Source: Levyella massiliensis
GTDB lineage: Bacteria; Bacillota; Clostridia; Tissierellales; Peptoniphilaceae
Direction: 5' to 3'
DNA: 64,000 bases
Assembly (NCBI RefSeq): GCF_000308275.2
Contig: NZ_HG529490.1
Coordinates: forward strand, 709,695 to 773,694
Shown: positions 5,092-57,344 of the stretch, in pieces
Position numbering within the stretch: the stretch's first letter is position 1
How the letters are laid out: each line of letters starts with the position of its first letter
Program-made: the position numbers and the translations under genes
The notes under the pieces: generated by a model
What the model was told of the DNA's origin: nothing
The model's database searches: none
Seen by the model: only the letters and a program-made list of their open reading frames with translations

Positions 5092-6226
5092 AATTCCAGT
5101 CCTTTCCGTTAAAGGCCTCCAAGCCGAAGCGTAGCGCTCTTTCCAACGTTTCGCGCTCTTCCGGCGCTGCTTTCCTCCACCGGGCATAAAGTTCTGCCGC
5201 GAAATAGCCTTTGAGGCTTTCTTCCTGCTTTAACTGTTCCCAATCTAATGCAGGCACGCGCAGGTCACGAATTTCAAGCCAATACAGCTTTTCCCGCAGC
5301 GTTTCCTGCAACAAGGCCCAGTCCACCGGCTCCTCTTCGTCCACAGCGCCCGTCAAAAGCAAACGAGCCGCAATGTTTGAATCGTCAAAACCGGCCATAT
5401 GCGCCTCCTGCAGCGCCGCCATCAAACGCTCCTCTGCCTCCCGCTGGGAAGAGAGATGCGATCCGTCCACCTCCTGGCGAACAAAGAGACGCGTCGAAAG
5501 CGCCCGAAAATGCAAATCACAGTGCATCGGCTCAACTGTGCCCAGATAAACCCCTTTCACACCCGTTTCATCAAAGCCGGTTCCGTCCGGACAGCCGCTA
5601 TAAGCCACGGTCGTATGACCCACCGTCTGCAACGACGAGCGCTTATGTACATGTCCCAATGCCACATAGGTAAAGAAGTCGGGCGGCAGCGCTTCCGGCA
5701 GTATCGGATGATAGGGACTCTCGGGCTGATTCCAATCGCCGTGCACCACCAAAAGACGCGTATACCCCGGCGTCTTTTTTCTCTCCTCTTCCCAAGGCAA
5801 CGTCAATAGCGATCGTTCCTGATACGTGCCGCTAAATCCGGCGCCGTAGATAACCAGTTCTTTTTCCGGATCGGTCAGTGCTTCACAAGCACCGCGAAAA
5901 ATATGAACATTCTCCGGCCATGACGAAGCATAGGGGCTGTCAGGCGCCATATAGTCGTGATTGCCCGGCGTAATTAAGACCTTCAGAGAAGCCGCCTCAG
6001 CGATGCGTTCCCGAATGGCCTGAATCTGCTGTTCCGTAATTTCCGAGCTTTCCAGAAAATCGCCTGCCAGCAACAGATAATCCACGTTCTCGCTTGCACA
6101 GATTTCCAGCATATGGAAAAAGCTGCGCAGAATCTCGTTGCGACGCGCTGTTGCCTTATCGCCCAGACCGGGCAGGCGCGCGCCCAAATGCAGGTCTGCC
6201 GCGTGCATGATTTTAATGCGATGCAT
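5072..6226 (-). CDS. DNA repair metallophosphoesterase, YhaO/SbcD-like
   Basis: 384-residue calcineurin-like phosphoesterase, the predicted nuclease subunit paired with the downstream ATPase. Metal-binding motifs are in order: HAADLHLG near the N-terminus, GDFLES, GNHD, VHGD and GHVH. The start at 6226 (MHRIKIMHAAD) follows AAAGGG at about 6 nt; a longer frame to 6358 lacks conserved sequence and would overlap the divergent trmL. The gene ends inside the YhaN-like gene (20-bp overlap) and is head of a three-gene run that continues into the ClC gene. Divergent from trmL. Confidence 0.9.
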   Translation of the reverse strand: MHRIKIMHAADLHLGARLPGLGDKATARRNEILRSFFHMLEICASENVDYLLLAGDFLESSEITEQQIQAIRERIAEAASLKVLITPGNHDYMAPDSPYASSWPENVHIFRGACEALTDPEKELVIYGAGFSGTYQERSLLTLPWEEERKKTPGYTRLLVVHGDWNQPESPYHPILPEALPPDFFTYVALGHVHKRSSLQTVGHTTVAYSGCPDGTGFDETGVKGVYLGTVEPMHCDLHFRALSTRLFVRQEVDGSHLSSQREAEERLMAALQEAHMAGFDDSNIAARLLLTGAVDEEEPVDWALLQETLREKLYWLEIRDLRVPALDWEQLKQEESLKGYFAAELYARWRKAAPEERETLERALRFGLEAFNGKDWNFADLIH

Positions 6227-6356
6227 GTGTTCCCTTTCTGTTTTTCTTATCCAACGCGCCATATAGCATACGGCGCTCCGAAATGCGTTGCACATAAAAG
6301 CGCCCCCTGCTGGGCAACGCAAATAATTTGCGTTACCATGTTCATCGGAGGCTACC

Positions 6357-6842
6357 ATGGCAAAAAATCACATTGTACTTATTGAACCGGAAATTCCGTA
6401 TAATACCGGAAATATCGCGCGCACTTGTGTCGTAACCGGCACAGCGCTTCATCTTGTTCGCCCTTTCGGCTTTCGTCTGACCAGCCAGCAGATCGCACGC
6501 GCTGGAATGGATTACTGGGACAAAGTCGACCTGACCATCTGGGACAGCTGGCAAGAATTTGTAGAGCATGCCGATGCGCTGGAAAAAGAGGGTACCGAAG
6601 TGCTCTATATTGAAACGCGCACCCCTCGCTCCTTAGGAGATCTGAAGGCAACGGATTCCGTCATGATGGTGTTCGGCAGCGAATCCAAGGGGCTCCCGCA
6701 TGCCATGATGGATCGCAATCAGGAGCGATGCATGCGCATTCCCATGCTGCCCGGGTCGCGCTCTTTAAATTTATCCAACTCCGCTGCCATCGTGCTCTAT
6801 GAAGTGCTGCGGCAACAAGACTATCCCGGCCTTACACGTTAA
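6357..6842 (+). CDS. trmL: tRNA (cytidine/uridine-34 2'-O)-methyltransferase TrmL
   Basis: 161-residue SPOUT-family RNA methyltransferase that methylates the wobble ribose of some tRNA-Leu species using S-adenosylmethionine. Family signatures are clear: IVLIEPEIPYNTGNIAR at the N-terminus, FGSESKGLP in the knot, and the C-terminal SRSLNLSNSAAIVLYE. Length matches TrmL. GGAGG lies 7 nt before the ATG at 6357. It is divergent from the YhaO-like gene and convergent with thrB. Confidence 0.95.
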   Translation: MAKNHIVLIEPEIPYNTGNIARTCVVTGTALHLVRPFGFRLTSQQIARAGMDYWDKVDLTIWDSWQEFVEHADALEKEGTEVLYIETRTPRSLGDLKATDSVMMVFGSESKGLPHAMMDRNQERCMRIPMLPGSRSLNLSNSAAIVLYEVLRQQDYPGLTR

Positions 6843-6854
6843 CGTAAAAGCCGA

Positions 6855-6897
6855 CTCTGCCCTGCTACGCTCGCACCGTGACAGGGCTTTACTTGTA
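6855..6897. terminator. Possible weak terminator between trmL and thrB
   Basis: GCCCTG and CAGGGC arms separated by a long loop, followed on the + strand by TTTACTTGTATTGT. The loop is long and the U-tract broken, so the call is tentative. It is the only hairpin I see in this 107-bp convergent junction. Confidence 0.3.
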
Positions 6898-6949
6898 TTG
6901 TAAACCAATTGTTTTTAACTTCCAAACGCCGACAAGACCCGCCATAACG

Positions 6950-7906
6950 CTAGTGCTTACGAGATGCTTTTTCCTCATCAGAGGCTGCGATCGTGGCGCC
7001 GACGAAATCAGGGCGGACAGCGCGCACTTTCCAACCCTTTGGCACATCTTCATTTAACGCGACTTCCACGCGAGATTCGGCTTCTGCCAATGAGACACAA
7101 AGCAGTGTTGATCCGGCGCCGCTTATCACAAGCCCCGCCGCACCAGCAGCAACGGCCTTCTTTTCCCAAGCTTCAAATTGCGCAATCTGCGGACGACGAT
7201 AAGGTTCATGCAGACGATCTTTTAAACCGATCTGCAACAGCTTAGCGTCCCCTGTTCGCAGCCCCTCCAATAAAAAGCCAAAAGAGGAGAGATTAAAAAC
7301 GGCATCCTTTCGAGAAACGGTCTCCGGCAAGCCTGCCCGCGATTTTTCGGTGCTAGACGCAAAATCCGGAATCAACACGTGAAACCGGAGATGCTCTGAC
7401 AGCGGGCAAGAACACGCTTTAACTCTGCCATCGATAAAACGCGAAATCTGTAGGCCGCCATATAACGCCGGCGCCACATTGTCCGGATGGCCCTCCACTT
7501 CCGTCGCCACGCGCAAAATGGAGGCATCCGTAAAACGACCGCCACGCATAGGCGGCGTCAAACGGCGTGCCATAAAGCGTGCCGCTTCCGCTCCTGCTAC
7601 AATGCAGGCGGCAGAAGACCCCAGCCCCCGTGTGGAGGGAATATCCGAAGCAATATATACACTGATTCTCGGCAATGCAATGTCAAGCATCTCCGCATAA
7701 CGCCAATAGGCGTCCAACACGAGATTACGTCCGTAGTGATGTCCTGCCGCTGCGGCATTCGAAAAGACCGGCGCTTGGGCGGGATTATCATCCGATTGAC
7801 GCAGATGAAACATATAGTTGGCATAGAGATTCCAAGCAATCCCGGCACAGTCAAAGCCGGAGCCTAAATTAGCACTGGTGGCGGGCACCCGAATAGTAAA
7901 CGGCAT
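6950..7906 (-). CDS. thrB: Homoserine kinase
   Basis: 318-residue GHMP kinase that phosphorylates homoserine with ATP, the step before threonine synthase. Seen: substrate loop VPATSANLGSGFDCAG at the start, the ATP loop PSTRGLGSSAA, and EGHPDNVAPALYGG. The start is the ATG at 7906, preceded by AAAGGAG with 6-nt spacing; a 6-codon longer ORF exists. It lies 1 nt after the thrC stop, so it is the last gene of the aspartokinase-asd-hom-thrC-thrB operon. Confidence 0.95.
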   Translation of the reverse strand: MPFTIRVPATSANLGSGFDCAGIAWNLYANYMFHLRQSDDNPAQAPVFSNAAAAGHHYGRNLVLDAYWRYAEMLDIALPRISVYIASDIPSTRGLGSSAACIVAGAEAARFMARRLTPPMRGGRFTDASILRVATEVEGHPDNVAPALYGGLQISRFIDGRVKACSCPLSEHLRFHVLIPDFASSTEKSRAGLPETVSRKDAVFNLSSFGFLLEGLRTGDAKLLQIGLKDRLHEPYRRPQIAQFEAWEKKAVAAGAAGLVISGAGSTLLCVSLAEAESRVEVALNEDVPKGWKVRAVRPDFVGATIAASDEEKASRKH

Positions 7907-7907
7907 C

Positions 7908-9389
7908 TCATACTCCTTTCGCAAAACCGATCACGGCATCGCGCATCGCTTCGCGGGTCAAGCGCTGTGGCGCATGTCCTTTTTCACGCGCTAAAACACG
8001 TAACGGTTCCGGTACAGGCACTTTCGAAAGTGCAGCCAGTTCCTCCCATTGCTGCGCAAGAGACGCAGGTACCGGACGATGCAAAGCACGCAACACGGTA
8101 TCTGCAAATTTAAAGGGGCTCGCCGTGGAAAGCACAAGTTGATAGGCACGCGCTTCGTCCTTATCGCTTTGTGCGTCAGAAAGCATCTTCTGCACATGTA
8201 ACGCCACCGCCGTGTGCGGATCGACCACTTGATGCGCCGTACGATAGAGTGTTGCGATGGTTTTCTGTACGGCGTCTTCGTCCGCATACCCCCATCGCAT
8301 ATCTTTGTCTGACAGGGCAAAGGAGAAATGACCTTCGCTGGCCAATTTCTGCATCTCTACGCGCACGATCTCGGCATCCTTGCTTTCGTGGTAGAGGAAG
8401 CGTTCCAAATTGCTGGAAACGAGAATATCCATCGAAGGGCTCGTCGTGCGCACCAGTTCCCGTCGCGCATCATACGTACCGCTTTGGCCGAAGTCCGTCA
8501 GCACATGATTGGTATTGGAAGCAACGGTGAGAATGCGTAGCGGCAGACCCATACGTTTCGCATAATATCCCGCTAAGACGTCGCCGAAATTGCCCGTGGG
8601 CACCGTCACATCCAACGGAGCTCCTTCTGATATCGCCCCCGCCAGCACCAGCGACTCATATGCCGTGAAATAGTAGACGATCTGTGGCACCAGACGTCCG
8701 ATATTGATGGAATTGGCTGAAGAAAGGCGCACCCCCTGCTTTTTCAGTGAGGACGCCATGGCTTTATCGGTGAAGAAGGCTTTAACCGCGCGCTGACAAT
8801 CATCAAAATTGCCTTCCACCGCATAGGCAAAGACGTTATTTTCTTTCTGCGTACACATTTGCTTTTCCTGCGCCCGGCTGACCCCGTCCGCCGGATAAAA
8901 CACAAGAACACCAAAGCCGTCCACGCCGGCAAAGCCTTCCATGGCCGCTTTCCCGGTATCGCCGGAAGTCGCCGTCAGAATTAACAGACGGTCCGTATCC
9001 CCTGTCACCTCTTGGGCGGCACGCATCAAATGCGGCAAAGCCGATAGCGCAATGTCTTTGAAAGCCAATGTCGGTCCATGCCACAATTCAAGCAGGGCAA
9101 GCGTCTGATCTACGGGTTGCACGGGACAAATTTGTCTCGTGCGAAAGCGCTTGTCATATGCCGTTTTCACCACATTCGCAATGCGTTCTTCCCCCAGGGA
9201 AGGAAAATAGAGACGAAAAATGCGCTGTGCTACTTCTTCAAACCGTAGCCCTCGCCAAGCGCGAAAATCCACCGTCGGAATTTTTTCCGGTACAAAAAGG
9301 CCTCCATCGGGCGCAAGTCCCTGTAATAAAGCCTCGGCATCCGTTGCTCTCAGTGACGCATCACGCGTCGAATGGTACATTAAGACCAT
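7908..9389 (-). CDS. thrC: Threonine synthase
   Basis: 493-residue PLP enzyme converting O-phosphohomoserine to threonine. Recognisable blocks: YHSTRD and APDGGLFVPE near the N-terminus, HGPTLAFKDIAL (containing the PLP lysine), and TATSGDTGKAAMEGFAG. An alternative ATG at 9380 (MYHSTRD) overlaps the hom stop as TAATG and may be the real start; the 9389 ATG has GGTGGTG 5 nt upstream. Within the threonine operon, between hom and thrB. Confidence 0.94.
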   Translation of the reverse strand: MVLMYHSTRDASLRATDAEALLQGLAPDGGLFVPEKIPTVDFRAWRGLRFEEVAQRIFRLYFPSLGEERIANVVKTAYDKRFRTRQICPVQPVDQTLALLELWHGPTLAFKDIALSALPHLMRAAQEVTGDTDRLLILTATSGDTGKAAMEGFAGVDGFGVLVFYPADGVSRAQEKQMCTQKENNVFAYAVEGNFDDCQRAVKAFFTDKAMASSLKKQGVRLSSANSINIGRLVPQIVYYFTAYESLVLAGAISEGAPLDVTVPTGNFGDVLAGYYAKRMGLPLRILTVASNTNHVLTDFGQSGTYDARRELVRTTSPSMDILVSSNLERFLYHESKDAEIVRVEMQKLASEGHFSFALSDKDMRWGYADEDAVQKTIATLYRTAHQVVDPHTAVALHVQKMLSDAQSDKDEARAYQLVLSTASPFKFADTVLRALHRPVPASLAQQWEELAALSKVPVPEPLRVLAREKGHAPQRLTREAMRDAVIGFAKGV

Positions 9390-14948: not shown

Positions 14949-15404
14949 CCCCATGTTATAACGCCCAAGCGAAAATAACATGGGGTTCAATTTGCGCGAT
15001 ACCCCATGTTAAATGCAAAATCGCGAAATAACATGGGGTTCGATTTGCCGCGGTACCCCATGCTAAAATGCAAATTTGCGAAATAACATGGGGTGCCAGC
15101 GCTCTAAAAACGAAGAATTCTCCCATGTTAAAATCGAAATCACGAAATAACATGGGGTGCCGGCGTTCGAAAAATGCTGAAATACCCCATGTTAAATGCA
15201 AAAATGCGAAATAACATGGGGTTCAATTTGTCGCGGTCCCCCATGCTAAAACGTAAAATCGCGAAATAACATGGGGTGCCGGCACTCTAATAATGAAAAA
15301 TTACCCCATGTTAAAATCGAAATCGTTAAATAACATGGGTTTCCCAGCGTAATCCGGCAAAAATTCACCCCATGTTAAAATCGAAATTGCAGAATAGCAT
15401 GGGA
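14949..15404. repeat. Hairpin array B: 8 palindromic units with two spacer lengths
   Basis: Units of 37-38 bp (CCCCATGTTA, about 17 nt, TAACATGGGG) start at 14949, 15002, 15056, 15120, 15185, 15239, 15304 and 15368. Spacers are 16, 17, 26, 27, 17, 27 and 27 bp, giving periods of 53-54 or 64-65 bp. The loop sequences vary but are A-rich. The array occupies the junction between the convergent comEB and RidA genes. ORFs running through it are by-products of the repeat. Confidence 0.95.
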
Positions 15405-20371: not shown

Positions 20372-20632
20372 AAAAAAACGTCCTTTGTCACAATGACAAA
20401 GGACGAAATAAATTCCGCGGTACCACCTTACTTCGCATCAAATCGATGCGCACCTTCAAGCACTAACATGCTCTAACTCTGTAACGGGAGTGCCCGTACA
20501 ACCCTATGATCGAATTGTCCCATCCGAGGCCATGTTCCCTTCGATTCCCACTCGCCCTTCTCAGCTACCGGGCTTCTCTGTAGAGTTTCTTTCGAAAGTA
20601 CTCTTCTCTTCAACTGGTTTCTTATGAAGTTG
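20372..20632 (-). promoter_or_regulatory. T-box leader (probably methionine-specific) of metNIQ
   Basis: Minus-strand leader with the hallmark T-box sequence AGGTGGTACCGCGGAA (20413-20428), followed by an intrinsic terminator with a 12-bp stem CGTCCTTTGTCA / TGACAAAGGACG and seven T (20372-20405). Upstream are the stem I elements, including AGAGAAGCCCGG-type apical sequence. Uncharged tRNA should stabilise the antiterminator and allow readthrough. The specifier is probably AUG (candidate at 20531-20533, minus), supported mainly by the methionine transporter downstream; I did not fold the full stem I. Confidence 0.93.
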
Positions 20633-28606: not shown

Positions 28607-29359
28607 TACCGTTGGTAATTGCGAAAACGCCAAGACCCACGGTAGGCGCGATGGCGCAAATCGCCGTTTTCTACCGTTGGTAATGGCAAAAACGCCAAAA
28701 CCCACGGTACACGGGGCGGCGCAAATCGCCGTTTTGTACCGTTGGTAATTGCGAAAACGCCAAAGCCCCCGGTACGATCGACCTCATGCAGACCAATTTC
28801 ATACCGTTGGTAATCGCAAAAACGCAAAAACCCACGGTGCTCGGGGCGGCGCAAATTTCCGTTTTCTACCGTTGGTAATGGCGAAAACGCCAAAACCCAC
28901 GGTACGATCGGCCACGTGCAGTCCAATTTCATACCGTTGGTAATTGCGAAAACGCAAAAACCCACGGTACTATCGGCCGCCTGTAGTCCAATTTCATACC
29001 GTTGGTAATTGCAAAAACGCCAAAACCCACGGTACTATCAGCCGCCTGTAGTCCAATTTCATACCGTTGGTAATTGCGAAAACGCCAAAACCCACGGTAC
29101 GCTGTGCGGTACAAATCGCCGTTTCATACCGTTGGTAATCGCAAAAACGCAAAAACCCACGGTGCTCGGGGCGGCGCAAATCGCCGTTTTCTACCGTTGG
29201 TAATCGCGAAAACGCAAAAACCCACGGTACGCTGTGCGGTACAAATCGCCGTTTCATACCGTTGGTAATCGCGAAAACGCCAAAACCCCCGGTACGATCG
29301 ACCACATGCAGACCAATTTCATACCGTTGGTAATCTCGAAAACGCCAAAACCCACGGTA
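28607..29359. repeat. Hairpin array A2: 12 palindromic units, exact 65-bp period
   Basis: Units of 38 bp (TACCGTTGGT, 18 nt, ACCCACGGTA with variants) start at 28607, 28672, 28737, 28802, 28867, 28932, 28997, 29062, 29127, 29192, 29257 and 29322. The 27-bp spacers again come in two classes, one ending CCAATTTCA, one ending CGCCGTTTTC or similar; units 8 and 10 share an identical spacer. This is the reverse-complement relative of array A1, with the same unit count and period. It fills the junction between the convergent PPK2 and pyridoxal kinase-like genes. Confidence 0.95.
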
Positions 29360-44976: not shown

Positions 44977-45284
44977 TACAGTGCAAAATGCTTTTTGCAC
45001 AAAAAGTACTGTATAAAAATGGCAACATTTACAGTACTTTTTTCAAATGATGCGAAAAGTACTGTAGTTTTTGGAGCAGTTAGACAGTGCTTTCAGGCCA
45101 TTTATCAAAAAAGCACTGTATTTTTGAGTGGCAAAATACAGTACTTTTCTTATATTCTTATTTTTGTACTGTATTTCCACCCGATTTTGTACAGTACATA
45201 ATGCAATTTTCAATGAAAGTACTGTATTTTGCCCCGTTTTCATACAGTACAAATTTATATATATCTCAAAAGTACTGTAGAGAC
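44977..45284. repeat. Hairpin array C1: 6 units, copy 1 of a 308-bp direct repeat
   Basis: Units of 37-38 bp (TACAGTAC or TACAGTGC, about 21 nt, GTACTGTA or GCACTGTA) start at 44977, 45030, 45083, 45137, 45190 and 45243, with 16-bp spacers and a 53-54-bp period. The complete 308 bp recurs at 46608-46915 in the same orientation with 18 differences by my count and no indels. Located between the convergent mglC and nuclease-like genes. Confidence 0.95.
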
Positions 45285-45299
45285 GCCTTTTCTATCGTG

Positions 45300-45390
45300 C
45301 CGTTGCGATCGTAACCCTGGTTCGTACCGTTGTCATCGTAACCCAGGTTCGTACCGATGTCATCGTATCCTAGGTTCATACCGTTGCCAT
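45300..45390. repeat. 27-bp tandem repeat, 3.4 copies
   Basis: Three complete 27-bp copies (starting 45300, 45327, 45354; core CCGTTGTCATCGTAACCCAG then GTTCGTA) plus 10 bp of a fourth. It lies between array C1 and the 3' end of the nuclease-like gene. It shows no relation to the hairpin arrays. Confidence 0.85.
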
Positions 45391-45468
45391 ATAGAACGCA
45401 GCTGCTAAGCTTCCTTCTTTTCGTATGACTGAAGCCGCAGCGTGGGCATCGCTTCGTACTAATATGGA

Positions 45469-46299
45469 TTACTGATCCTCAATGGCGGATTGCTTCTTGG
45501 GCATCAGGAAATTGTGAATCAGTGCCTGCACCGCTTTATAGTCTAAAGGACAGCACTGCGCTTCAAACGTAGTGATGACACGAGCATAACGTGTAACGCC
45601 TTGCTTATCGTAAAAATCAATTTTTTGGATTGCTGCTTTCAGATACGTAGGATCATCCATCATGCCAAAGTGTTCCCAATATATCTCCTTACCATTCGAC
45701 CAATCAAAAAATGTGAAGTCCGGATAAATCGTTTTTTCCCCCACTCTGAGTGGACATTCATACTTGTAAAAAATTCCTTCATCAAAAAACGTGTCTGCCA
45801 GTATTTTTTCCGTTTTGGAACGTACCGTTTCTCCTTGTTTGGTCTCAAAAATTTTGTTCTCCTGAAAATAGTGCGTCGGTTCGTACGTCTTGTTTTTCCA
45901 TGCTTCATACTGCTGTTGTAGCGTCGGGACAATAGGACACACTAAAGCCTTTCGCGATGGTTTTAATCGTTCATAAATACCGTCCACTTCTTCATCCTCA
46001 TACACTTGATACAATTTTCTGAACTGGTGAATGCGGCTCTCCAGCAATGCCTCAACTTTCTTATCGTACGATTGTTGGGCCAGCTTTTTTACGAGATCCA
46101 TTTGCTTTCGCGCCAAATACTTTTTGCTTTGTTTGACATCGCCATCTTTTTGTAGTCGATGATAGTACTGCGGCGGATCATAGCCATCATTGATCTCTAA
46201 GAATCCGGGGATCTTTTTCGACTGCTCTTGACGCACTTTTTTAAGTAATTCTCCGTATTTCCGTAGCATCGTGCCAAGATGTTGCTTAAAATTTATCAT
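45469..46299 (-). CDS. Hypothetical protein with PD-(D/E)XK nuclease-like C-terminal domain
   Basis: 276 residues. The N-terminal 150 are helical and basic with many Lys, Gln and Tyr. From about 165 there is a pattern typical of PD-(D/E)XK nucleases: RSKTEKILADTFFDEGIFYKYE (helix with Glu, then strand), IYPDFTFFDW (the Asp), IYWEHFGMMDD (the Glu; the expected Lys of the ExK is His here), then an alpha helix with Lys (AAIQKIDFYDKQGV). No regulator or methylase is adjacent. It is flanked by the two copies of the 308-bp array C. The start at 46299 follows GGAGGGAGCG. Function unproven; it could be a solitary defence, DNA-repair or mobile-element nuclease. Confidence 0.7.
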   Translation of the reverse strand: MINFKQHLGTMLRKYGELLKKVRQEQSKKIPGFLEINDGYDPPQYYHRLQKDGDVKQSKKYLARKQMDLVKKLAQQSYDKKVEALLESRIHQFRKLYQVYEDEEVDGIYERLKPSRKALVCPIVPTLQQQYEAWKNKTYEPTHYFQENKIFETKQGETVRSKTEKILADTFFDEGIFYKYECPLRVGEKTIYPDFTFFDWSNGKEIYWEHFGMMDDPTYLKAAIQKIDFYDKQGVTRYARVITTFEAQCCPLDYKAVQALIHNFLMPKKQSAIEDQ

Positions 46300-46607
46300 C
46301 GCTCCCTCCGATATCATCTGCGATTTGCCTCTGCTGGTCCGTTCTAAAACTCCTTGATCAGCAATTCGTGACCAGTCTATCCATAACTATTATTCCAAAT
46401 CGCAAATGTCTGTGTGTCCCAACAATGTCCCATTAGATCTCAATATTTCCGTAGCGACTTTAATAAAGTCAAAAAGAGCAACGGCACAAGAATACAGTAA
46501 AAGATAGACAGGAAACAAAAAAGAAGGTTAGCGATGGGAATCTCCCATCTTCTGCACATTATAAAAAGCGAAGCGGTGAAGCAAATGGCGGCATTTAAGC
46601 CGAAGCC

Positions 46608-46915
46608 TACAGTACAAAATGCATTTTGCACAAAAAGTACTGTACGAAAACAGCAACATTTACAGTACTTTTTTCAAATGATAAGAAAAGTACTGTAGTT
46701 TTTGGAGCAGTTAGACAGTGCTTACAGGCCATTTATAAAAAAAGTACTGTATTTTTAAGTCGCAAAATACAGTACTTTTCTTATATTCTTATTTTTGTAC
46801 TGTATTTCCACCCAATTTTGTACAGTACATAATGCAATTTTCAATGAAAGTACTGTATTTTGCCCCGTTTTCATACAGTACAAATTCGTTTGTATCTCAA
46901 AAGTACTGTAGAGAC
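46608..46915. repeat. Hairpin array C2: 6 units, copy 2 of the 308-bp direct repeat
   Basis: Same organisation and orientation as 44977-45284, offset by 1631 bp. It lies between the start of the nuclease-like gene and the end of the second brnQ. The 290 bp between it and the nuclease-like gene contain no gene I can support; a 63-codon hydrophobic minus-strand ORF starts inside the repeat. Confidence 0.95.
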
Positions 46916-53429: not shown

Positions 53430-53496
53430 AACTCCTCCTTCTTTTTCGGTCACGTGCGGTTCATCCGCTCCGGAGGTTACTCAAACGATTAGCGAT

Positions 53497-53563
53497 GCCG
53501 TAGTCCGATTCTTCCGGGAATCGGGTAGAGACGCCTTCGCCAAATTCGAAAGCCTATACGGTC
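53497..53563 (-). promoter_or_regulatory. Guanine (purine) riboswitch aptamer
   Basis: On the minus strand the purine aptamer core is intact: P1 CCGTA / TACGG, P2 GCTTTCG / CGAAGGC with a 7-nt loop ending TTTGG, J2/3 GTCTCTACC, P3 CGATTC / GAATCG with loop CCGGAA, J3/1 GACTA. The base corresponding to position 74 is C (GGACTACG), the guanine-type specificity base. No obvious terminator follows; ACCTCCGGAGCGGATGAACCGC downstream could be the regulatory hairpin. It lies about 70 bp upstream of the permease. Confidence 0.92.
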
Positions 53564-53577
53564 GTGACACAAGTTTC

Positions 53578-53605
53578 ATTATAGAGGAAGCGGCAAGAAA
53601 AGCAA
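53578..53605 (-). promoter_or_regulatory. Promoter of the purine riboswitch transcript
   Basis: Minus strand TTGCTT (53600-53605), 16 bp, TATAAT (53578-53583), just upstream of the riboswitch. Its -35 box touches the U-tract of the preceding gene's terminator. Confidence 0.7.
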
Positions 53606-57042: not shown

Positions 57043-57344
57043 CACAGTGCTTTTTACGATACATCGATTTAACACTGTAGGAAAAATGAGTGAAATACAG
57101 TGTTTTTATCGATAATCCTATTTTGTACTGTACAAATCGCGAGGCAAATACAGTACTTTCGCCGAAAACTTTAATTTGTACTGTAAAAAAAGGAAAGAAA
57201 ATACAGTGCAAATATTGATAATCTCTAAAAGTACTGTATTTCGTCGCTGAAAACTACAGTACTTTTGAACAAAATTTCAATTTGCACTGTAAAAGAGGCC
57301 GAAATCCTACAGTACTTCCCGTCGTATTTCAAAAAAGCACTGTA
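57043..57344. repeat. Hairpin array C3: 6 units, exact 53-bp period
   Basis: Units of 37 bp with arms TACAGTAC / GTACTGTA (or -GC/GC- variants) start at 57043, 57096, 57149, 57202, 57255 and 57308, with 16-bp spacers. Arms are shared with arrays C1 and C2; loops and spacers are not. It fills the junction between the convergent flavodoxin and DJ-1 genes. Confidence 0.95.

Follow-up and report, generated by a model that had tools for sequence, protein, structure and literature searches.

A 282-aa protein encoded in the window, by which is meant the whole 64,000-nucleotide stretch of DNA analysed here, belongs to a family of small nuclease-like proteins from gut and human-associated bacteria; these tend to lie next to an array of their own, built of regularly spaced mirror-image DNA sites, with more such arrays dispersed in the genome, in what looks like a partnership not yet described. 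Genes and arrays are paired throughout the genome that holds the window, each array family has private arm sequences, and the arms co-diverge with the proteins; arrays co-occur with their cognate genes among related species, their units are helically phased, relatives have places free of array or gene, and whole arrays have been duplicated. The evidence leans toward a partly mobile but resident pairing of nuclease and repeats: the protein would bind the phased half-sites in duplex DNA, and its nuclease domain would remodel or spread the arrays by cutting them.

The window locus and its five paralogues

The gene occupies 45469-46317 on the minus strand and lies between two array copies in direct orientation on the plus strand, one downstream relative to the gene (44977-45284) and one upstream (46608-46915), which together form the top repeat in a repeat search of the window. 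A recount of these 308-bp copies gave 18 mismatches without gaps, or 94.2% identity, exactly the 18 differences and about 94% reported in the first-pass annotation of this DNA. Both copies consist of six inverted-half-site units with a step of 53-54 bp, five of them 37 bp long and the third in order 38 bp, with an arm that has diverged further; in the copy at 44977-45284 the five regular units have the form TACAGTRC-N21-GTACTGTA. The contents of the bracket are likewise as first described: three 27-bp tandem copies found by repeat search between array and gene (45295-45375), the gene itself, and a stretch of about 290 bp between the gene start and the upstream array (46318-46607) that holds short ORFs only. 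The bracket arrays are far beyond chance. Twenty-nine places in the genome carry the self-complementary pattern ACAGTAC-N5..34-GTACTGT and none carries its reversed control, and on a palindrome count this locus scores 9, whereas 60 Markov shuffles of such regions gave 1, with a single 2. Short tandem repeats are also found near the gene elsewhere: in L036 (9906-10004) a run of 11-bp copies separates the C3:32039 gene from its array, and in L038 (6791-6876) such repeats adjoin the gene.

The family to which the protein belongs is unnamed, since no Pfam or NCBIfam model reaches its cut-off with the 282-aa sequence, and among the 25 of 55 families listed no Pfam model matches more than two of 53 members even at E<=1. 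The structure model is confident (pLDDT 91.1) and divides into two parts. Residues 151-272 (45502-45867, minus strand) form a nuclease-like domain whose structural neighbours are I-Bth0305I (Z 8.7; 3r3p, 92 residues, 3.0 Å), Bax1 (7.8), TnsA (7.6) and Vsr (6.6), and the residues invariant in 53 aligned sequences include S167, K168, E170, P199, D200, E215 and H216, all within this domain. A Z of 8.7 is modest, as models without a clear match usually reach a best Z of 7-8; the predicted C-terminal domain resembles restriction-type nucleases at that modest level of match, and the initial description of the product as PD-(D/E)XK-like stands in this sense. Residues 1-126 (45940-46317, minus strand) are modelled as a helical hairpin with a three-stranded sheet at its tip and are the candidate half-site-binding part. 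No clear structural relative of the N-terminal part emerged from structure searches, whose rows were mostly coiled coils, and an AP2-like fold suggested by strand order was not borne out by them.

The 1.71-Mb genome holding the window (G000), which was compared with four congeners (G001-G004), contains six copies of the gene, the other five encoding proteins 37-46% identical to that of the window. An inverted-repeat array adjoins each of the six, with a different arm sequence in every case: TACAGTRC at the window locus, and CCCATGTTA, GACCGTGCCTTT, TACCGTnGGTAATG, CGACTAGGTAA and TTACGGGTCA at the others. The array lies on both sides of two genes, upstream of one and downstream of three (L036a, L036b and L039), and the TTACGGGTCA family at L039 has only two units beside its gene in this genome.

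Arrays of the same families also occur alone. Six arrays came out of an unseeded scan of the window, every one from a gene-linked family (three TACAGTRC, two TACCGTnGGTAATG and one CCCATGTTA), and none out of one shuffled copy of the window. Besides the two bracket copies these comprise a TACAGTRC array between genes at 57043-57344, which is the gene-free array that the first reading of the DNA had pointed out; a CCCATGTTA array at 14949-15402, whose linked gene lies outside the window (G000:C1:777806-778567); and two TACCGTnGGTAATG arrays at 471-1223 and 28607-29359, whose family is linked to a gene at G000:C3:32039-32833. All six are intergenic, the only ORFs that two of them overlap being of 103-125 aa, and the TACAGTRC places inspected elsewhere also lie between genes, by reading. 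Neighbouring genes differ from one solo TACAGTRC place to the next, by reading of six fetched stretches and the window array at 57043. The solo TACAGTRC arrays are 68-78% identical to the bracket over aligned stretches of at least 110 bp, and there is therefore no sign of very recent spread. The window also contains a T-box leader and a purine riboswitch, at 20396-20622 and 53481-53581, both above Rfam gathering scores and ordinary.

Array units and their helical spacing

Units of the TACAGTRC family are built from inverted 8-bp half-sites. When the gap is left free, the starts of the two arms are, in all but a few units, separated by 29 bp, and the units follow one another mostly at 53 bp, so that gaps of 21 and 16 bp alternate. 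Information content was calculated from a set of 62 TACAGTRC units, selected with the gap held constant and including one spurious unit. The arms carry 1.1-2.0 bits per base and the 16-bp spacer 0-0.5; the three or four positions that follow the arms are almost always occupied by A or T, in either sense (0.7-1.0 bits), and two A/T positions reach 0.8 in a unit interior that otherwise holds 0-0.4 bits. The arrays had been labelled as hairpins at first, a label that the data for this family speak against. Under a 12-bp stem model 74.6% of cells are paired as against 81.2% in shuffles, and 500 of 500 shuffles paired at least as well, in a test to which the six outer pairs, which hardly vary, contribute no information. 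Because neither the variants of the arm nor the A/T tracts that flank it are compensated, a hairpin or cruciform reading was rejected for the TACAGTRC family, the only one to which this conclusion applies.

Unit spacings cluster at 42-45, 51-55, 62-65, 75 and 84-87 bp, and more than one class can occur within a single array: in several, 54 stands together with 64, or 53 with 63 and 75. Spacings outside the 51-55 class (36 locus-spacing values from 20 loci, among which related loci and skipped units, such as 42 and 86, are not independent) fit a period of 10.6-10.7 bp with a phase near zero (R 0.71), a result reached in none of 5000 random draws. Units stand at about whole helical turns, which places equivalent sites on one side of the double helix. 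Such spacing is expected for protein sites on one face of a duplex and has no ready reason in RNA, and the helical phasing provides a sharp, testable prediction of how the protein is seated on its DNA.

This bears directly on the possibility that the arrays are transcribed and that their variable stretches serve as guides, in the manner of TIGR-Tas or CRISPR systems. TIGR arrays, in the paper that describes them, consist of two distinct 8-12-nt repeats with spacers of about 9 nt, yield 36-nt guide RNAs and accompany a protein with a Nop domain, and include a stem-loop variant in which palindromes are flanked by box C/D motifs (PMC12045711). The arrays described here resemble these in the tandem alternation of short repeats with variable spacers of fixed length, in the adjacent nuclease gene and in repeats specific to each locus (PMC12045711). 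They differ in that the two repeats are inverted copies, that is reverse complements, of one sequence, in their longer spacers (the gaps of 21 and 16 bp in the TACAGTRC family) and in a spacing that follows the DNA helix. Some spacers, moreover, are nearly identical to one another, with a period identity of 0.99 in L057 and 0.96 in L052. No Nop model is among the Pfam matches shown for the 53 members, and the structural match to TasH is a single coiled-coil row, with Z 7.5 over 65 residues, tied with rows for prefoldin. An RNA-guided array is accordingly rated highly improbable.

Homologous loci, relatives and brackets

The association was followed across 80 homologous loci, the best 80 of at least 530 confirmed relatives; they come from named genomes whose record titles point mostly to Lachnospiraceae and Peptoniphilaceae. 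With 26 loci of the genus added, 106 gene-oriented loci were available, three of which have too little upstream DNA; four genes are repeated (L040/L131, L042/L136, L051/L142 and L089/L129) and L138 and L143 are pieces of one gene, so counts are slightly inflated. Autocorrelation over 1-kb stretches (shorter at contig ends), which detects decayed arms too, reached the threshold of 0.5 in the upstream kilobase of 77 of 103 loci, in the downstream kilobase of 20 of 106, and in 14 of 257 far stretches. Periods of 41-44, 51-55, 63-64 or 86 bp account for 75 of the 77 upstream cases as opposed to 3 of the 14 far ones. On a strict count, at least three palindromes with the same arm lie within 1.5 kb of the gene at 28 of the 80 loci as against 1 of 125 stretches 1.9-4 kb away, a comparison in which the near stretches had the greater length (as much as about 3.8 kb, the far ones 2.1 kb) and in which the lone far match, in L097, may be another array. 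Another 38 of the 80 loci score only 1 on this count; of 31 re-examined, 23 are periodic upstream at 0.5 or above, which leaves 8 without a clear array. At 15 of the 80 loci the contig stops less than 1 kb upstream of the gene, and at one it does so downstream, as would be expected if assemblies break at repeats there. The association does not extend to large proteins that have only a related nuclease domain: in four such proteins with true gene flanks (a fifth, L208, having almost no flank in its contig) neither flanking kilobase contains an array, and autocorrelation is at most 0.47.

The proposal in the first-pass annotation that the gene may travel with such arrays is thus upheld at all six paralogues and at most homologous loci examined, and the pattern of homologues lying consistently in array-free contexts was not seen. 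Arms and proteins were compared in the 54 loci whose arrays are clear. Mean similarity of the arms is 0.88 at protein distances below 0.2 (22 pairs), 0.67 at 0.2-0.35 (72 pairs), 0.43 at 0.35-0.5 (218 pairs) and 0.36-0.32 beyond 0.5 (1119 pairs), and the Mantel rho of -0.26 was matched in none of 2000 permutations. Arms thus co-diverge with the protein, gene and array staying together, a pattern that common descent alone could also explain.

Genes and array families were also compared with the four congeners. Five of the six proteins of the genome find a best identity of only 40-46% among 16 proteins of the genus and have no close homologue, and the sixth, that of L039, has homologues of 90-91% identity in G001, G002 and G004. 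TACAGTAC arrays are present in G000 and gave no match in G001-G004, in a search that carried no positive control in those genomes and that does retrieve relatives of the bracket within G000. CCCATGTTA occurs as 50 exact units at ten places in G000 and not at all in the four relatives, and those lacking TACAGTAC and CCCATGTTA also have no close homologues of either cognate gene. TTACGGGTC, by contrast with both, is counted 6 times in G000, 2 in G001, 1 in G002, 13 in G004 and 0 in G003 (itself only 87% complete), that is, in exactly the four genomes that share the 90%-identical gene. The three array families searched in the four congeners are therefore present only where the cognate gene is.

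The gene at L039 is syntenic in the four species, with two units in G000 and about eight in the others, and here gene and array look stably inherited. Concerted change of the arms between species was considered for this locus and set aside, the arms being the same TTACGGGTCA in all four with scattered variants. Two solo TTACGGGTC arrays, at G000 C2:61428 and G004 C1:54099, have very similar loops and lie at comparable distances from the cognate gene; they are perhaps one old array inherited by both species.

Other places in G000 differ from their counterparts in relatives. G001, G002 and G004, in which lgt, mraZ and their surroundings are collinear, have no counterpart of the solo array that separates these two genes in G000. 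The one beside proS is missing in three of three, with a different gene in its place and the other neighbour inverted; that between pepC and an acetyltransferase (GNAT) gene, which has about 60-100 bp of non-array DNA at its sides, is also missing in three of three, G001 and G002 being rearranged and G004 differing beyond the junction. A gene with its array, present on one side only, stands between tRNA-Pro and the next gene in G000, a place taken by about 85 bp in G001 and G002 and by an unrelated 1-kb stretch in G004. At each of these sites, compared without an outgroup, loss in the ancestor of the relatives is possible. The tRNA-Pro (tgg) gene itself (L037 6846-6921) has the opposite orientation in G000 to that in the three relatives (L198, L199 and L197), and a small inversion therefore accompanies the insertion of gene and array. 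Exact insertion ends or a target-site duplication were sought and none was found, the intergenic DNA being too diverged or rearranged. At the window locus the neighbouring transporter has 34-36% identity in relatives and no match in G003, and is not orthologous. Whether the gene might be a conserved core gene had been raised at the outset, and it is not: five of the six genes have neither a close congener homologue (40-46%) nor a same-site copy, and at one site both gene and array are absent from three of three relatives.

These observations are also those on which to weigh a regulator with operators, in which the protein would bind DNA to control its own gene, with the nuclease fold of secondary importance, the gene-adjacent array its operator, and the solo arrays control sites for their neighbours. 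Where an array is detected among the 80 loci it lies mostly upstream, ending about 30 bp before the start codon in L043, and private phased half-sites would suit a cooperative repressor. Against this, the array is downstream at three of the six loci of G000 and on both sides at two, residues of catalytic type are invariant in the 53 aligned sequences, and the solo TACAGTRC places have differing neighbours as well as relatives without arrays at such places. Such a regulatory role is considered unlikely.

Distribution in the order is patchy. Among 249 genomes of the order 20 gave a match, of which 14 carry the family itself (by reading of the rows), all within the taxonomic family of the window; five match through the nuclease domain of long proteins only, and G106 is a weak partial match. 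A genome has at most nine matching places, broken copies included. Carriage on plasmids or phages was considered and rejected: seven plasmid records each match 32-43% of the query, over the nuclease part, and three unannotated faecal 'Bacteriophage sp.' contigs reach at best 73% coverage and 30% identity with a detector score of 2. No relative was confirmed among viral contigs. Such a distribution, together with broken copies, could suit a harmful nuclease for which the arrays act as a sink or as self-marking sites, making the pair hard to lose. In favour of this, the nuclease domain is matched by two candidate-defence models of PADLOC, PDC-S68 in six of six paralogues and PDC-S69 in five of six. 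Yet no partner gene, and no methyltransferase of the kind that a type II restriction-modification system would place beside its nuclease, is apparent next to the six genes on a reading of the ORFs, and a local sink leaves unexplained the solo arrays far from the gene. We judge a decoy or addiction arrangement to be distinctly unlikely.

Brackets of the kind seen in the window recur elsewhere. Direct near-copies flank the gene at seven loci (the window, 94%; L038, 86%; L044, 86%, its second copy 1.4 kb away; L067, 90%; L069, 73%; L074, 84%; L175, 68%), and an inverted bracket is found at one (L119, 71%). The search covered up to 122 entries including repeats, with entries having less than 200 bp on a side skipped and rows taken at E<=1e-10; L157 and L174 were left out as overlaps from truncated loci and L125 for a 77-bp pair taken as two tRNA-Pro genes, and L130, L135 and L150 repeat L038, the window and L067. 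In L030, two similar TACAGTRC arrays of seven and eight units (6054-6408 and 8622-9029), in the same order and sharing about 37 bp upstream of the arrays, stand around a GntR-type regulator and an ABC-transporter operon, a bracket shape without a nuclease gene, by reading. In L033 a TACAGTRC array (6527-8212) appears to have received the insertion of an IS3-like transposase pair (6725-7917, by reading).

The suggestion that the window locus is a cassette delimited by its repeats, as first proposed, fails as a general rule on these counts. In its fuller form it amounts to an LTR-like composite, in which array, gene and array would move as a unit and solo arrays would be left by recombination between copies. 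The preponderance of direct brackets over inverted ones (seven loci to one), the existence of solo arrays and the fact that the window duplicate starts within a base of a unit boundary speak for it; brackets are nonetheless a minority, the gene gained beside tRNA-Pro is flanked by an array on just one of its sides, and in L030 arrays of the TACAGTRC family enclose an operon unrelated to the nuclease, so such a composite seems quite improbable. Whole arrays get duplicated near by; brackets are a minority arrangement that recurs as a by-product or form of transfer, and not the basic unit.

A candidate mechanism and its relation to known systems

For the resident, partly mobile pair preferred here, the following course of events may be proposed. 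In each of the six pairs in G000 a PD-(D/E)XK-like protein of small size is coupled to an array family of its own, the unit of which is an inverted pair of 8-12-bp half-sites repeated at approximately whole helical turns. The protein would bind these half-sites, either in dimeric form or in a phased assembly, and the nuclease domain would nick or cut at the arrays, whereupon repair of the breaks could let arrays expand, shrink, duplicate and spread, in cis and in trans. The pair would thereby persist as a resident, partly mobile element with the solo arrays as its non-autonomous members, and the bracket in the window would represent duplication of a whole array to the other side of the gene.

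The analogy given most weight is that with RAYTs, which are thought to remodel or spread REPs: the pair would work like a RAYT and its REPINs without belonging to them, the enzyme being unrelated. In the published account a distinct cluster lies beside each RAYT, with inverted doublets, dispersed copies and co-evolution (PMC3116915). The likenesses are one gene per repeat family, clusters of inverted doublets beside the gene, dispersed intergenic copies and co-divergence (PMC3116915). A RAYT (TnpA-REP), however, is an HUH/Y1 transposase of IS200/IS605 type, whereas a PD-(D/E)XK-like domain is found here; the REPIN is a hairpin doublet, unlike the phased half-sites without sign of hairpin selection in the TACAGTRC family; and REPINs are mostly single, in contrast to regular arrays with steps near whole helical turns.

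A search by title and abstract, with most subscription journals and bioRxiv preprints outside its coverage, found no published nuclease-array pair of this kind. It seems an evenly balanced question whether the pairs constitute a distinct class of element, in which a stand-alone PD-(D/E)XK nuclease recognises and propagates private, helically phased duplex arrays, with several orthogonal pairs in one cell. If they do, they would parallel REP/RAYT without an HUH enzyme and would supply, ready made in nature, orthogonal nucleases that bind DNA site-specifically. Dispersed palindromic repeats of Firmicutes would then have a nuclease partner of their own, unrelated to RAYT, and this way of life would have arisen more than once. 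A single genome with six pairs, no two sharing an arm sequence, amounts to a natural experiment on the residues that set the arm sequence and on nuclease-driven growth of arrays.

Two further groups of nucleases may be compared with the C-terminal domain. A homing endonuclease, such as those of the EDxHD/Vsr type, has its own site interrupted. I-Bth0305I, of this type, is the best structural neighbour of the domain, its Z of 8.7 standing just above the range of models without a clear match, but the arms here are multiplied in arrays both beside the gene and away from it. Homing would involve cleavage of a gene-free allele, and a gene-free counterpart does exist in relatives for the site at tRNA-Pro. 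The PADLOC models PDC-S68, PDC-S69 and HEAT_CxxC_PDDEXK share a related nuclease domain (E down to 2e-29). PDC-S68 differs in architecture, in that models of about 1200-1270 positions carry the nuclease at the C-terminus, whereas the present protein has 282 aa and matches positions 1090-1218 of 1221 only.
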